Shown here piece by piece: positions 9,218-39,037 of a DNA stretch of 64,000 nt (the first letter of the stretch is position 1; every line of letters begins with the position of its first letter). Below the pieces are notes generated by a model. The model was not told where the DNA came from, did no database searches, and saw nothing but the letters and a program-made list of their open reading frames with translations. The DNA comes from Mycobacterium barrassiae (GTDB taxonomy: Bacteria > Actinomycetota > Actinomycetes > Mycobacteriales > Mycobacteriaceae), in the NCBI RefSeq assembly GCF_025822765.1, contig NZ_JACKUK010000027.1, forward strand, positions 311,626-375,625. The letters are read 5' to 3'. Both the position numbers and the translations under genes were made by a program.

Positions 9218-10045
9218 TTAGCGCTGTGTGAACTGAGCGAGTTCGGGCTCGTCGGCCAGACCCCATGCGGTGATCCGGTCGGAGATCACCTGTTTCAGCT
9301 GATCGGGCCCGAAGATGCCCGCTTGCGCGATATTGGCGACCTTGTCGGCGTAGGCGTCGATGTCGGCACCGATGACCTCGAGTTCGCTGGCGCGACGCGC
9401 GATGGCGGTGACCGTCTCCTCGCGGTGGGTTTCGAGCAGGTGCGACACGAGGTTGTGGAAGAACTCCTCGTGGCGCTCCTCGTCCTTGGCGATACGGCCG
9501 ACGAGCGACTTGAGCACCGGTTCGGTGATCTGCGCTTCGAGGTTGCGGCAGTACACGGCGTGCGAGCGTTCGTAGAACGCCATGAACGCCAGCCGCTCGA
9601 TCTGGCTGTAGGTGTCGGCGCGATAGCCCTTCATCACGTGCTCGACGCGCACATCCTCGTTGGCGGTCGGATCGATCTCACGGGTGACGACCAGGTAGTT
9701 GCGCAGCACGATCGCGTGCAGATGCTCCTCGGCGGTCCAGCGGCCGAGCCAGCGGCCCCACTTGTCCTCGAGGATGAAGCTGAAGACGAACTCGCGGTGG
9801 TAGCCGGCGAGGTTGTCCTTGTTGATCAGCAGGATTTCCAACGCATCGGTGACCGTCTTCGGCAGCGTCACCTGGGATGGATCCCAGTCCCGTCCGCCGA
9901 GGAAGGCGAAGTTCTCACCCTGCTCAAACGGCACGTAGTCGTGGGCGTACCAGAGTTCTTCCGAGTCGATGTGACGACGCAGCTCCTGCTGCACGACCGG
10001 CTCGAGTTCGAGGATCAGCGCATTAGCGACAGGTTTCTGTGCCAT
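9218..10045 (-). CDS. desA2: DesA2-type acyl-ACP desaturase family protein
   Basis: A 275-residue diiron acyl-ACP desaturase-like protein, the same length as DesA2 of M. tuberculosis (Rv1094). Diiron ligand motifs are visible in EEHLHA and DEERHEE. Plant-type soluble desaturases introduce double bonds into acyl-ACP; DesA2 is linked to mycolic-acid biosynthesis in mycobacteria (known), though its catalytic competence has been debated. The start is set at MAQKPVA because the upstream residues are not family-like and because a -10-like TACTGT lies 6 nt before that ATG. It lies between glyA and phoAT-phoH2, as in M. tuberculosis. Confidence 0.93.
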   Translation of the reverse strand: MAQKPVANALILELEPVVQQELRRHIDSEELWYAHDYVPFEQGENFAFLGGRDWDPSQVTLPKTVTDALEILLINKDNLAGYHREFVFSFILEDKWGRWLGRWTAEEHLHAIVLRNYLVVTREIDPTANEDVRVEHVMKGYRADTYSQIERLAFMAFYERSHAVYCRNLEAQITEPVLKSLVGRIAKDEERHEEFFHNLVSHLLETHREETVTAIARRASELEVIGADIDAYADKVANIAQAGIFGPDQLKQVISDRITAWGLADEPELAQFTQR

Positions 10046-35700: not shown

Positions 35701-37398
35701 GTGACAGACACCGCTGAGGCCGTCGAGGACGCCCCGCCGCAGGAGGAAACGCCACCCAAGCGGCCGTGGTGGGTGCGTCACTACACGTTCACCGGTACGG
35801 CACTGGGTCTGGTTTTCATCTGGCTGTCCCTGACGCCGTCGCTGCTGCCGCGCGGGCCGCTGTTCCAAGGCGTCGTCAGCGGTTCCGCGGGCGCGATCGG
35901 ATACGGCCTCGGCGTGTTCGTGGTGTGGCTGTGGCGCTACATGCGATCGAAGGACGCCAGTCCGCCGGCGCCGCGCTGGGCCTGGATGGCCCTCCTGGTC
36001 GTCGGTGCCATCGGCATGCTCCTGATGATCTTCTACTTCCACCGCTGGCAGGACGAGGTCCGCGACCTCAACGGCGTAGCGCGCCTGGAGTTCTGGGACT
36101 ACCCGTGGTGTGCGTTCCTGTCGATCGTGGTGCTGTTCATCTTCGTCGAAATCGGCCAGCTCATCGGCAGGCTCGTGCGCTTTCTGGTGCGGCAGCTCAA
36201 TCGCGTTGCACCACCCCGCATCTCGGCGGTGATCGTCGTCGTCCTGCTGCTCGCCCTGACCATCGCGCTGCTCAACGGTGTGGTGGTGCGCTTCGGCATG
36301 AGCGCGTTGAACAAGACGTTCGCGGCGGCCAACGACGAAACCGATCCCGAATTCGGGCCGCCGACATCGCCGTTGCGCTCCGGCGGGCCCGGCTCGGCGG
36401 TCACGTGGGATTCGCTGGGCCATCAGGGACGGGTGTTCGTCTCGGCGGGGCCCACGGTCGAGGAGCTCACCGAATTCAACGGCAAACCCGCCATGGAACC
36501 GATCCGGACCTATGCCGGACTGCACTCCGCCGACGGCATCAAGGCGACCGCCGCGCTAGCGGCCGAGGAGCTGCAACGTAAGGGCGGCCTCGACCGCGAG
36601 GTGGTCGCCGTCGCCACCACCACCGGCACGGGCTGGATCAACGAGGCCGAGGCCTCGGCGCTGGAGTACATGTACAACGGCGACACCGCGATCGTGTCCA
36701 TGCAGTACTCGTTCCTTCCGAGTTGGCTGTCCTTCCTCGTCGACAAGGAGAACGCACGCCAGGCGGGGCAGGCGCTGTTCGAGGCCGTTGACGGGCTGAT
36801 CCGCGAGATGCCCGAGGCGGATAGGCCCCGGCTGGTGGTGTTCGGCGAGAGCCTGGGCTCGTTCGGCGGCGAGGCGCCCTTCCTGGCGCTGAACAACCTC
36901 ATCGCCCGCACCGACGGCGCGCTGTTCTCCGGCCCGACGTTCAACAACACGATCTGGACCCAACTGACCCGCAACCGCGATGCGGGCTCGCCGGAATGGC
37001 TGCCCATTTTCGACAAGGGCGACAACGTCCGCTTCGCCGCGAGGTCGGAGAACCTCGACAGGCCCGACGATCCGTGGGGTCATCCGCGGGTGGTGTACCT
37101 GCAGCATGCGTCGGACCCGATTGCCTGGTGGAACCCGGATCTGCTGTTCGCCGAACCGGATTGGCTCAAGGAGCCACGCGGCTACGACGTGTCAGGACGC
37201 ATGCAGTGGATCCCGATCGTCACCTTCCTGCAGGTCTCCGCGGACATGGCGGTTGCGGTTGATGTGCCCGACGGCCACGGCCACGTGTACGTCAAGGACG
37301 TCGCCAACGCCTGGGCGGACATTCTGCAGCCCCCGGGCTGGACACCGGAGAAGACCGAGAAGCTGCGCCCGCTACTGAGCAACGACGAAAACGCCTAG
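35701..37398 (+). CDS. Membrane-bound alpha/beta hydrolase-like protein (Rv1069c family)
   Basis: A 565-residue protein: about four or five transmembrane helices in residues 30-200, then a large alpha/beta-hydrolase-like domain with nucleophile elbow GESLGSFGG (about 382-390) and a histidine near the end (PDGHGHVYV). This is the Abhydrolase_9 (DUF2305-like naming varies) family of actinobacteria, of unknown substrate. Start is the GTG at 35701, 9 bp after echA8, so it may be co-transcribed. Orthologue of Rv1069c by position and sequence pattern. Confidence 0.88.
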   Translation: MTDTAEAVEDAPPQEETPPKRPWWVRHYTFTGTALGLVFIWLSLTPSLLPRGPLFQGVVSGSAGAIGYGLGVFVVWLWRYMRSKDASPPAPRWAWMALLVVGAIGMLLMIFYFHRWQDEVRDLNGVARLEFWDYPWCAFLSIVVLFIFVEIGQLIGRLVRFLVRQLNRVAPPRISAVIVVVLLLALTIALLNGVVVRFGMSALNKTFAAANDETDPEFGPPTSPLRSGGPGSAVTWDSLGHQGRVFVSAGPTVEELTEFNGKPAMEPIRTYAGLHSADGIKATAALAAEELQRKGGLDREVVAVATTTGTGWINEAEASALEYMYNGDTAIVSMQYSFLPSWLSFLVDKENARQAGQALFEAVDGLIREMPEADRPRLVVFGESLGSFGGEAPFLALNNLIARTDGALFSGPTFNNTIWTQLTRNRDAGSPEWLPIFDKGDNVRFAARSENLDRPDDPWGHPRVVYLQHASDPIAWWNPDLLFAEPDWLKEPRGYDVSGRMQWIPIVTFLQVSADMAVAVDVPDGHGHVYVKDVANAWADILQPPGWTPEKTEKLRPLLSNDENA

Positions 37399-37793
37399 AC
37401 CAGAACGCCTTCGGCCTTCAACGCGTGGTAGCCGCCGATGACGTCGGTGGCACGGTGCAGCCCGAGGTCGAGCAGGGACGCGGCGGCCAGGCTGGAGGTG
37501 TAGCCCTCCGAGCACAGCACCACCCATTCGACGTCGTCGTCCACGGCCTGCGGGAGCCGGGCATCGCTGGTCGGGTCGCAGCGCCATTCGAGCACGTTGC
37601 GTTCGATCACCAGGGCCGCCGGAACCTCCCCTTCACGTTCGCGCTGGGCCTGCGGCCGGATGTCCACCAGGATCGCGCCACGGGCCAACGCCGCAGGCAC
37701 TTCCTGTGCAGTTAGTCTGGTCAGCCGGGCACGGGCGTCGGCCAGGATGCGATCGATGCGGCTCACCACCGAAACTGTAGCCATCGACGTCAT
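37395..37793 (-). CDS. Rhodanese-domain sulfurtransferase
   Basis: A 132-residue single-domain rhodanese. The active-site cysteine (C94) sits in the loop LCSEGYTSS, with LVDIRPQ and DVIGGYHAL as supporting motifs. It transfers sulfane sulfur between thiols. The ATG at 37793 overlaps the stop of cysteine dioxygenase by 4 nt (ATGA), which I prefer; an ATG at 37784 has a better-spaced Shine-Dalgarno (GGAGGG). It is the second gene of a cysteine-catabolism operon led by the polycysteine peptide at 38354. Confidence 0.93.
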   Translation of the reverse strand: MTSMATVSVVSRIDRILADARARLTRLTAQEVPAALARGAILVDIRPQAQREREGEVPAALVIERNVLEWRCDPTSDARLPQAVDDDVEWVVLCSEGYTSSLAAASLLDLGLHRATDVIGGYHALKAEGVLV

Positions 37794-38308
37794 CCCTCCG
37801 GCTCGTCGGTGAGTTCGGTGCGATTGCGGCGCAGTGTGTTCCGAGGTGTCACCTCGTAATAGGACATCGCGGTCAACGGCGGCGAGTATGCGTGCACGCT
37901 CAAAGTCGGGGTGATCGGTGCCGAAGTGTCCCGGTCGGGCGCCCACACCACGTCGTGCACCCAGCCGAGCGGGAACGCCGCCTGGTCCCCCGCCTTGAGG
38001 TGCCGGCGCCTGAGCTCCCGGCCGTCCCAACGGGTTTCCTCCAGCGCACCGGACACCACGGTCAGTGCGCCCAGCGAACCACCGTGGTCGTGCAGCTCGG
38101 TCGAGCGGTCCGGAACCCAGCTGATGAGCCAGACGTCGAGGTCGTCGTCGCCGTGCAGCCGGGTGTACCAGCGGTCGGTTGTCGGGAGACCACCCGGCGG
38201 CAGCACGCCGTCGTAGCGGCCGGAGAACACGTCATCGGCGTAACGGTCGGTGGCATGCAGTAGGTCGGGTTGGCGCAGTCGGGTCGGCAACGAGATGGCG
38301 GAAACCAT
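37790..38308 (-). CDS. Cysteine dioxygenase
   Basis: A 172-residue cupin of the cysteine dioxygenase type I family. The iron-binding histidines are in LHDHGGS (H73, H75) and WVHDVVW (H118). It oxidises cysteine to cysteine sulfinate, thus removing excess cysteine. An ATG with GGAG Shine-Dalgarno gives the start. It is followed directly by the overlapping rhodanese gene, and preceded 45 nt upstream by a polycysteine sORF, consistent with cysteine-sensing control. Confidence 0.92.
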   Translation of the reverse strand: MVSAISLPTRLRQPDLLHATDRYADDVFSGRYDGVLPPGGLPTTDRWYTRLHGDDDLDVWLISWVPDRSTELHDHGGSLGALTVVSGALEETRWDGRELRRRHLKAGDQAAFPLGWVHDVVWAPDRDTSAPITPTLSVHAYSPPLTAMSYYEVTPRNTLRRNRTELTDEPEG

Positions 38309-38353
38309 GCGAACTCCAGGGAATGACGGACGGAACGGACAGGGACAGGCGCG

Positions 38354-38401
38354 TCAGGCGCAACAGTCCATGCGGCAGATGCACAGGTATCCGGTCGTCA
38401 C
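38354..38401 (-). CDS. Polycysteine leader peptide, candidate cysteine attenuator
   Basis: A 15-residue leaderless ORF read on the minus strand: GTG start at 38401, stop TGA at 38354-38356, product VTTGYLCICRMDCCA with four cysteines. A -10-like CAGACT lies exactly 7 nt before the GTG. Polycysteine leaderless sORFs are described in mycobacteria as cysteine-responsive attenuators of downstream sulfur genes (recalled from literature). Here it precedes cysteine dioxygenase and rhodanese, so ribosome stalling at Cys codons under cysteine shortage could change their expression. No terminator-like alternative stem was identified by eye. Confidence 0.75.
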   Translation of the reverse strand: MTTGYLCICRMDCCA

Positions 38402-38408
38402 GGCCGCA

Positions 38409-38414
38409 AGTCTG
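38409..38414 (-). promoter_or_regulatory. Candidate leaderless -10 for the polycysteine peptide and cysteine dioxygenase operon
   Basis: CAGACT on the minus strand, 7 nt before the GTG at 38401, so the first transcribed base would be the G of the start codon. Confidence 0.55.
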
Positions 38415-38565
38415 GCATGAAGACGGGTGGCCGATCTGCAACGACGCCGTGGCCCGTACCGGACCGGACGGAAGCCGCTGTTCAGGGAGTGGCTTTTGAG
38501 GCCGGCATCTAAATTCACGGTGAGTCGAAGTCGACGGCACGATCGTCCGTCCGCGAGCCATTGCA

Positions 38566-38571
38566 TAGATT
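38566..38571 (+). promoter_or_regulatory. Candidate leaderless -10 element for lpqV
   Basis: TAGATT is followed by 7 nt and the ATG at 38579, identical to the echA9 arrangement. Confidence 0.6.
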
Positions 38572-38578
38572 GGCTGGC

Positions 38579-39037
38579 ATGAGCAGGCATTCTCGGCGCG
38601 CCGTCGGGGCGGCGGCGCTCGTGATCGTCGCCATGGCCGTGGGCACCGGGTGCTCATCAGGAACCGACACCTCGTCAGGACCCGACGCCGGGCCCACCAC
38701 GCCGGCACCGGCCGAGACGACCACGACGACGTCGGAGACCCCTACCGCGGCCCCCGGCGAGGTCGCCGTATCCCCGGACGGCGTCACGACGGCCGTCGGA
38801 GCTCCAGCCGACTCCACCGAGGACGAGTACTTCAAGGCGTGTAAGGCTGCGCGCGACTGGATGCAACAGCAGGGCGGCGACGCCAAGGCGCAGCTCGAGC
38901 CGTATTTGAAAAACGTGCAGGCCTCCGACGCACCGGGCCCGGGCACGTTCGACACCCCGTGGTCCCAGCTGCCTCCGCCGCGCCAGGCGGCGGTGATCGT
39001 GGCGGCGCAAGCCGCCGCCGACGCGCTCTGCGGTTAG
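38579..39037 (+). CDS. lpqV: Lipoprotein LpqV
   Basis: A 152-residue secreted lipoprotein: basic N-terminus, hydrophobic core, lipobox AVGTGC with the lipidated cysteine at about residue 25, then a Ser/Thr/Pro-rich linker and a small C-terminal domain with two further cysteines (EYFKACKAARDWM and ADALCG). Orthologue of M. tuberculosis LpqV (Rv1064c) by order and size. Function unknown. The ATG at 38579 has a leaderless-type promoter; an upstream in-frame ATG (38561) is unlikely. Confidence 0.88.
   Translation: MSRHSRRAVGAAALVIVAMAVGTGCSSGTDTSSGPDAGPTTPAPAETTTTTSETPTAAPGEVAVSPDGVTTAVGAPADSTEDEYFKACKAARDWMQQQGGDAKAQLEPYLKNVQASDAPGPGTFDTPWSQLPPPRQAAVIVAAQAAADALCG

Follow-up and report, generated by a model that had tools for sequence, protein, structure and literature searches.

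A conserved Cys-Cys reading frame upstream of the cysteine dioxygenase and rhodanese genes of Mycobacterium barrassiae as a candidate ribosome-read cysteine sensor

The question raised by this locus is whether a very short reading frame in front of a cysteine dioxygenase gene acts as a cysteine sensor for the genes that follow it and, if so, at which cysteine level these genes would be switched on. Within the window, i.e. the whole stretch of 64,000 nucleotides that was analysed, a leaderless-type sORF, VTTGYLCICRMDCCA, lies on the minus strand at 38354..38401. It consists of 15 codons, starts with GTG and reads, from 38401 to 38354, GTG ACG ACC GGA TAC CTG TGC ATC TGC CGC ATG GAC TGT TGC GCC TGA, with Cys codons at positions 7, 9, 13 and 14 (referred to in the following as C7, C9, C13 and C14). 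A -10-like hexamer, CAGACT (38409..38414, minus strand), is located 7 nt upstream of the GTG, which would be position +1. The sORF stop codon, spanned by a small hairpin of the form GCGC-CUGAC-GCGC (38349..38361, minus strand), is separated by 45 nt from the ATG (38308) of cdo. This first gene of a presumed operon (37790..38308, minus strand) codes for a cysteine dioxygenase family protein of 172 aa, has CTGGAG as its Shine-Dalgarno sequence (38314..38319, minus strand), and its counterpart in M. tuberculosis is Rv1065. It is followed by the gene of a single-domain rhodanese with the loop CSEGYTSS (37395..37793, minus strand), and both genes share positions 37790-37793, an overlap of 4 bp. The cdo product matched PF05995 (E 4.4e-10) and solved cysteine dioxygenases (E 5e-13), and the rhodanese product matched PF00581 (E 1.6e-8). 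The 15-residue GTG frame, the hexamer 7 nt upstream, the 45 nt spacing and the gene overlap had already been listed by the first-pass annotation, and the sequence bears all of them out. On the other side of the leader, lpqV is oriented opposite to the sORF and cdo.

When the window was searched for frames that start with [AG]TG, comprise 8-25 codons and end in Cys-Cys plus at most 4 residues, two were found, and only the cdo leader had an A....T hexamer 6-8 nt upstream. To judge whether such a frame is a regular companion of cdo, we turned to its conservation. The cdo protein was present in 57 of the 60 genus genomes drawn, and 56 genus loci (30 plus 26 fetched) were examined, one genome (G008) being dropped because the upstream DNA was missing at a contig edge. 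All 56 carried an [AG]TG frame that closes with Cys-Cys and a short tail, and an A....T hexamer stood 6-8 nt in front of each, although the hexamer count reflects the selection rule, of which the hexamer was a part. In the best 80 of 455 named relatives, a Cys-Cys frame of the leaderless type was found upstream of cdo at 79 loci; the two sets overlap, as several genomes occur in both. The exception is M. tusciae, in which the frame is present and the second Cys of the pair is replaced by Arg. Typical leaders of the genus are VMERFGFCECCRP, VMERTVVAECCRA and VTTGRQECCRP, the relatives' sORFs have a length of about 10-17 codons with a two-Cys core, and in 55 of the 56 loci the distance from sORF stop to cdo start was 26-55 nt (median 44). 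The pattern GAGTGTTGTCGGNCNTRA occurred as one copy in each of 29 of the 60 genus genomes, all 29 adjoining cdo, while the reversed control pattern gave 0 matches.

These numbers bear on the simplest rival explanation, a chance ORF devoid of function. The frame is indeed short and below routine gene calling, yet its presence at 56 of 56 and 79 of 80 loci and the unique pattern matches with a clean reversed control exclude it, mainly via conservation, and we consider it hardly credible. Codon counts inside the sORF are no proof of conservation by themselves, because the picking rule demands Cys-Cys; it is the number of loci that proves it. With this reservation, Cys codons of the sORF were spelled TGT rather than TGC in 112 versus 26 cases in the 56 genus loci and in 161 versus 16 cases in the 80 named loci, compared to 24 versus 96 in 33 ORFs taken mechanically from the window. 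The conserved pair itself (38360..38365, minus strand) is TGT TGC in the window and TGT TGT in most relatives. Of the four cysteines pointed out in the first-pass annotation, all are present in the window, whereas the conserved core consists only of the terminal Cys-Cys: among nine leaders of the window's clade, C7 occurs in 1 (the window only), C9 in 7 and Cys-Cys in 7. Sequence comparison thus indicates that only the terminal pair is ancient and that the four cysteines are a recent elaboration. The check that had been suggested, conservation of the Cys codons in relatives, came out in favour of the frame for this terminal pair. ECCR-like copies elsewhere in the own genome were not enriched, with 3 pattern matches versus 7 for the reversed control.

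It is worth adding that lpqV also appears leaderless, as TAGATT is followed after seven bases by its ATG at 38579 (window 38566-38581, plus strand). The motif ATCTATGCAA was found at most 30 nt upstream of the sORF in 40 of the 56 genus loci, and there the presumed -10-like element of lpqV and that of the sORF would sit back to back. About 150 bp lie between these elements in the window, L246, L247 and L249.

Our proposal, which we hold with slightly better than even confidence, is that the sORF works in cis as a cysteine sensor read by the ribosome, and that the cdo-rhodanese operon under its control is ON at low cysteine. Comparison of sequences backs it through the conserved sORF, its Cys codons and its position, as well as through RNA pairing in related genera; we further infer a transcription start, translation of the frame, a cysteine response and a role of C7 and C9. 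In detail, transcription would start at the GTG and a ribosome would load on the leaderless 5' end. With plentiful Cys-tRNA the ribosome would pass the Cys codons and leave, and the freed sORF RNA would pair with the ribosome site of the next gene (in other genera) or with the adjoining linker (in Mycobacterium), a pairing that would hold down translation downstream. With scarce Cys-tRNA the ribosome would pause on the Cys codons and melt this pairing, and cdo and rhodanese would be translated.

Attenuators of a polycysteine, leaderless type in mycobacteria were reportedly described at six loci by Canestrari et al. in 2020. Their mechanism was taken from citing papers (PMC9094748, PMC13236596, PMC9031893). 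As far as these papers portray them, the cdo leaders share with these attenuators a leaderless-type GTG or ATG sORF with Cys codons close to its stop, a position ahead of sulfur-metabolism genes and, for cdo leaders in related genera, pairing with the RBS. They differ in their length of about 10-17 codons with a two-Cys core and no NCBIfam match, in having a cysteine-oxidising enzyme as first target, and, in the window copy, in a terminal Cys-Cys stall that falls below shuffles. Similarly, the leaders that Seliverstov et al. described in 2005 (PMC1262725) are brief ORFs whose Cys codons lie close to the stop, with a pyrimidine-rich linker and without a conserved terminator; they belong to cys and cbs operons, and neither cysteine dioxygenase nor rhodanese is mentioned in the article. 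The Cys-rich uORFs before cysA2, Rv0485 and nirA (Shell et al. 2015, PMC4633059) are likewise leaderless and conserved, and stand at three other loci, cdo not being among those named in the accessible text. The classical trp and ilvB1 attenuators also sense an amino acid through its codons in a leader peptide, but the cdo leader has no detectable intrinsic terminator, and with tna-like Rho-dependent leaders the C-rich linker is its sole likeness. Altogether, the class assignment of the first-pass annotation, a leaderless Cys-codon attenuator, agrees with the frame's start, the -10-like hexamer in front of it, the retention of its Cys codons and, in related genera, the covarying pairing. The NCBIfam search (E<=10) with five cdo-leader peptides including that of the window, each taken as the sORF with upstream in-frame residues, gave no family, the Rfam search of the cdo leader gave no family match, and a literature search, for which subscription papers were mostly out of reach, found no report tying polycysteine leaders to cdo.

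Important insight into the pairing came from other genera. A cdo match was found in 88 of 121 family genomes, 81 of them outside the genus, and 42 non-genus cdo loci from these 81 genomes were examined. At 29 of the 42, an ECCR-type leader was present and the gene start could be assigned, a -10-like hexamer such as TACACT lying upstream of the sORF. Among the 13 loci for which no such leader was assigned (L086, L088-L099), L096 shows an ECCRG frame, and L089, L091, L093 and L097 another Cys-Cys frame. L062 (contig edge) and L034 and L137 (gene start unassigned) were left out of the leader set. For consensus folding, 26 of 42 assembled other-genus leaders were aligned as set A1, the other 16 being left out by spacer or length. 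CTGGAG, the Shine-Dalgarno sequence of the window's cdo, is common in set A2.

In the RNAalifold structure of A1, the sORF stretch GCAUGAG is base-paired with CUCAUGC around the start codon of the following gene, and CGAGGC at the end of the sORF with bases after the stop codon. The middle helix, CCAGGA with the Shine-Dalgarno UCCUGG, is absent from the RNAalifold structure; we placed it manually on the basis of single folds, and its innermost three pairs are only 71.8% paired. As a whole, 92.1% of the cells of this structure are paired, compared to 36-46% when it is slid. The covariation score was 0.192 versus 0.138 in shuffles (0 of 500 reached it), and 19 cells were changed on both sides versus 4.2 in shuffles; the number of pair types did not exceed that of shuffles (350 of 500). 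Pairing of the opposing sORF base (U-G or C-G) is kept even in leaders whose next gene has a GUG start. Spacers of 66-69 nt were observed in L071, L075, L078, L079, L080 and L082, with an extra hairpin inside. This hairpin consists of repeats of the sORF end (GAGGC/GCCUC) and resembles alternative 1:2, 2:3 and 3:4 pairings. The outer pairing is retained in the folds of L071, L075 and L080, and in that of L082 when the coding sequence is included.

The direction of a possible response was then deduced from modelled ribosome positions. In 41 other-genus leaders the opening cost of the ribosome site went from 18.3 (free) to 8.9 kcal (stalled), raw figures that overstate the effect because masking a stretch alone lowers the opening cost. 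Measured against shuffled sORFs, the mean gain of a stall at Cys-Cys was 9.4 kcal versus 1.6, with 36 of 41 leaders above their own shuffles by more than 1 kcal and 3 of 41 below. The best-supported direction predicted by these other-genus models is therefore that low cysteine leads to a ribosome pause, an open ribosome site and expression. This is contrary to the expectation of the first-pass annotation, by which a catabolic operon would respond to high cysteine with high expression. Such a direction has the metabolic logic of cysteine dioxygenase on its side, and the ribosome site of the window's cdo is opened by a Cys-Cys stall to no greater extent than in shuffles (0.45 versus 1.42 kcal); it is opposed by the 36 of 41 other-genus leaders just mentioned, with the reverse in 3, and we regard it as unlikely.

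In the case of Mycobacterium itself the picture is weaker. RNAalifold found no shared structure in 55 genus leaders, and their sORF-RBS pairing stayed close to that of shuffles (mean z -0.38, 7 of 55 with p<=0.05). The same holds for the window leader (z +0.60), whose whole fold was no more stable than shuffles (z 0.41). The gain of a stall at Cys-Cys amounted to 3.1 kcal, and to 2.0 kcal in shuffles; 55 of 119 genus leaders lay more than 1 kcal above their own shuffles and 22 of 119 more than 1 kcal below, counts which, like the t values, overstate independence because leaders inside one genus are kin. In a set of 97 leaders, Shine-Dalgarno sequence and start codon together gained more than 0.1 in accessibility in only 37 cases and lost accessibility in 5. 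Under the shuffle control the stall result was kept in other genera, weakened in the genus and lost in the window. With no shared fold and a weak stall gain, the direction within the genus is argued mainly by analogy, and for the window operon ON at low cysteine would be the expected direction by that same analogy.

In these genus models a ribosome at the sORF start codon alone opens the site equally (9.0 kcal versus 9.65 when stalled). Together with the leaderless-type start and the narrow spacing to cdo, this would suit an sORF that has no part in cysteine sensing and serves only for ribosome loading or coupling, or for the production of a functional Cys peptide. However, the Cys codons and their spelling as TGT are preserved in a peptide that is otherwise highly variable, and we consider this explanation improbable.

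What the genus leaders do show is pairing with their own linker. After removal of duplicates (175 to 160 leaders), cognate and swapped partners were compared: in 119 genus leaders, cognate sORF-linker pairing beat swapped linkers by a mean of -3.4 kcal, compared to -0.07 kcal for cognate sORF-RBS pairing. The hairpin at the sORF stop codon is by itself modestly above shuffles (on average 29% of shuffles were at least as good), and its cognate pairing beat swapped by -1.1 kcal. In 55 genus leaders the linker, taken from the stop to 12 nt before cdo, has a C content of 51% and a G content of 18%. This composition, and pairing of the sORF with its own linker rather than with the RBS, would also be expected from Rho-dependent transcription attenuation, in which the C-rich linker loads Rho and the position of the sORF ribosome gates the loading, in either direction. 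Consistent with it, no intrinsic terminator (hairpin plus U-run) was found in 38200-38620, where shuffles led us to expect 0.2. Against it, the linker has only about 40 nt, which is short for a Rho site, and the covarying pairs of other genera extend to the next gene's start codon and thus point to translation. Seliverstov et al. 2005 (PMC1262725) proposed Rho for the mycobacterial cys-operon leaders. All in all, a Rho mechanism appears rather unlikely to us, somewhat less so than induction by high cysteine. A sigma-70 consensus promoter was not found near the leader, where few were expected in shuffles.

To describe the ribosome-read sensor closer to the window, its clade was collected. A 121-base query gave matches in 16 of 396 genus genomes, and 8 of these matches were nearly full-length; with M. 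tusciae this gave the nine leaders mentioned above, the second Cys of the pair being lost in M. tusciae (L147) and in G464 (L252). In these leaders a different long-range helix is seen, with the first 12 nt of the sORF, GUGACGACCGGA (38390..38401, minus strand), as 5' arm and UCCGUCCGUCAU (38323..38334, minus strand), just upstream of CTGGAG, as 3' arm. It is fully paired in 9 of 9, one pair being G-C in 7 of 9 and A-U in 2 of 9. Its covariation is weak, as it concerns one pair and probably one event; 11 of 500 shuffles reached the score, and slides by +2 and +3 scored higher in covariation with fewer pairs. A modelled stall at C7 freed a raw 2.9 kcal (window only) and one at C9 a raw 0.8-5.7 kcal (7 clade members); when the ribosome was placed on the first Cys of the terminal pair, the gain in the clade was -0.6 to 3.1 kcal. 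In the sister L002 a stall at Cys-Cys gave -1.8 or -0.6 kcal, depending on the mask edge. A start-codon ribosome, alone or behind a stalled one, opened the site in 9 of 9 clade leaders. Since the pairing strand of the clade would be the first 12 nt, C9, and C7 in the window, would be better placed than the terminal pair to melt the helix. Possibly, the sensing codons of this clade were rewired to follow the pairing strand, a hypothesis suggested by the models.

A remaining difficulty of the sensor model is metabolic, as switching on a cysteine-oxidising enzyme at low cysteine appears odd. This oddity would be resolved by a salvage role, by a thiol substrate other than cysteine, or by the rhodanese as the main target. 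With respect to the latter, the pattern GARTGYTGYCGNGGNTRA was found at 70 places in 68 of 121 family genomes and 18 of 31 genera (reversed control: 5), and 20 of the 70, mainly away from a cdo match, were fetched. Six were without the leader layout and judged chance (L133, L134, L135, L138, L139, L140), including the sole matches seen in 2 of the 18 genera (the window's own genus and g25). At the other 14 the sORF was upstream of a rhodanese-like gene with no intact cdo between. The constant partner of the leader is consequently a rhodanese-fold gene, with or without cdo, and cysteine oxidation is not its constant function, which argues further against a high-cysteine response. The stand-alone rhodanese-like loci with an ECCRG leader are L123-L132, L136, L137, L141 and L142. 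A Pfam rhodanese match was obtained for 9 of 10 scanned stand-alone genes, two of them below the family cut-off, and none for L124. The catalytic Cys was present in all 66 cdo-linked rhodaneses with a readable motif (of 98 loci) and, by eye, absent in 9 of 10 translated stand-alone proteins.

Taken further, and only tentatively, as we doubt that all of its parts hold together, these observations could describe a separate ECCR-type leader family that is ON in starvation, in which the coding sequence doubles as the strand hiding the ribosome site. It would serve sulfur salvage or persulfide supply, not cysteine disposal, and the window's clade would have moved the pairing strand onto the leaderless start codon and gained new sensing codons upstream, C9 and then C7. 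If the sensor reading is true, ribosome-directed cysteine control extends to a thiol-oxidising operon across Mycobacteriaceae, and the direction predicted from other genera would challenge the view of cysteine dioxygenase as a disposer of excess cysteine. The leader family also offers many natural variants of one attenuator, which differ in pairing strand, sensing codons and target gene (cdo or a rhodanese-like gene alone), so that direction and sensing position become testable.

In other families of the class, cdo leaders (L111-L122) differ from the ECCR type. An MRCCC leader was seen at five cdo loci (L112, L114, L115, L117, L118), a peptide of the RRHIDLKRTCTAICR type (RRHIDLKRT-type) before cdo at two (L119, L121) and an MQSCR leader at one (L120). 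The four cdo loci of family f17, inspected by eye, have a one-Cys frame in three cases (L111, L113, L122) and none in L116.

Finally, the own genome contains two leaders that match known families: VFARLEPMLTKRRAVDLCRVAGCCCCCCSC (L225, G000:C25) matches NCBIfam Ms5788A (NF042933) and precedes, with an intervening ORF, the gene of a two-domain rhodanese, and VTAGRIFPQRVSLVARRHVDFKRVCTCCCLPCA (L240, G000:C37) matches Ms4527A (NF042936) and precedes a frame of 574 codons that contains sulfite/nitrite reductase domains. Elsewhere in the window, positions 9660-9727 of the plus strand match the Rfam family of the mycobacterial sRNA ASdes (E 4e-7).
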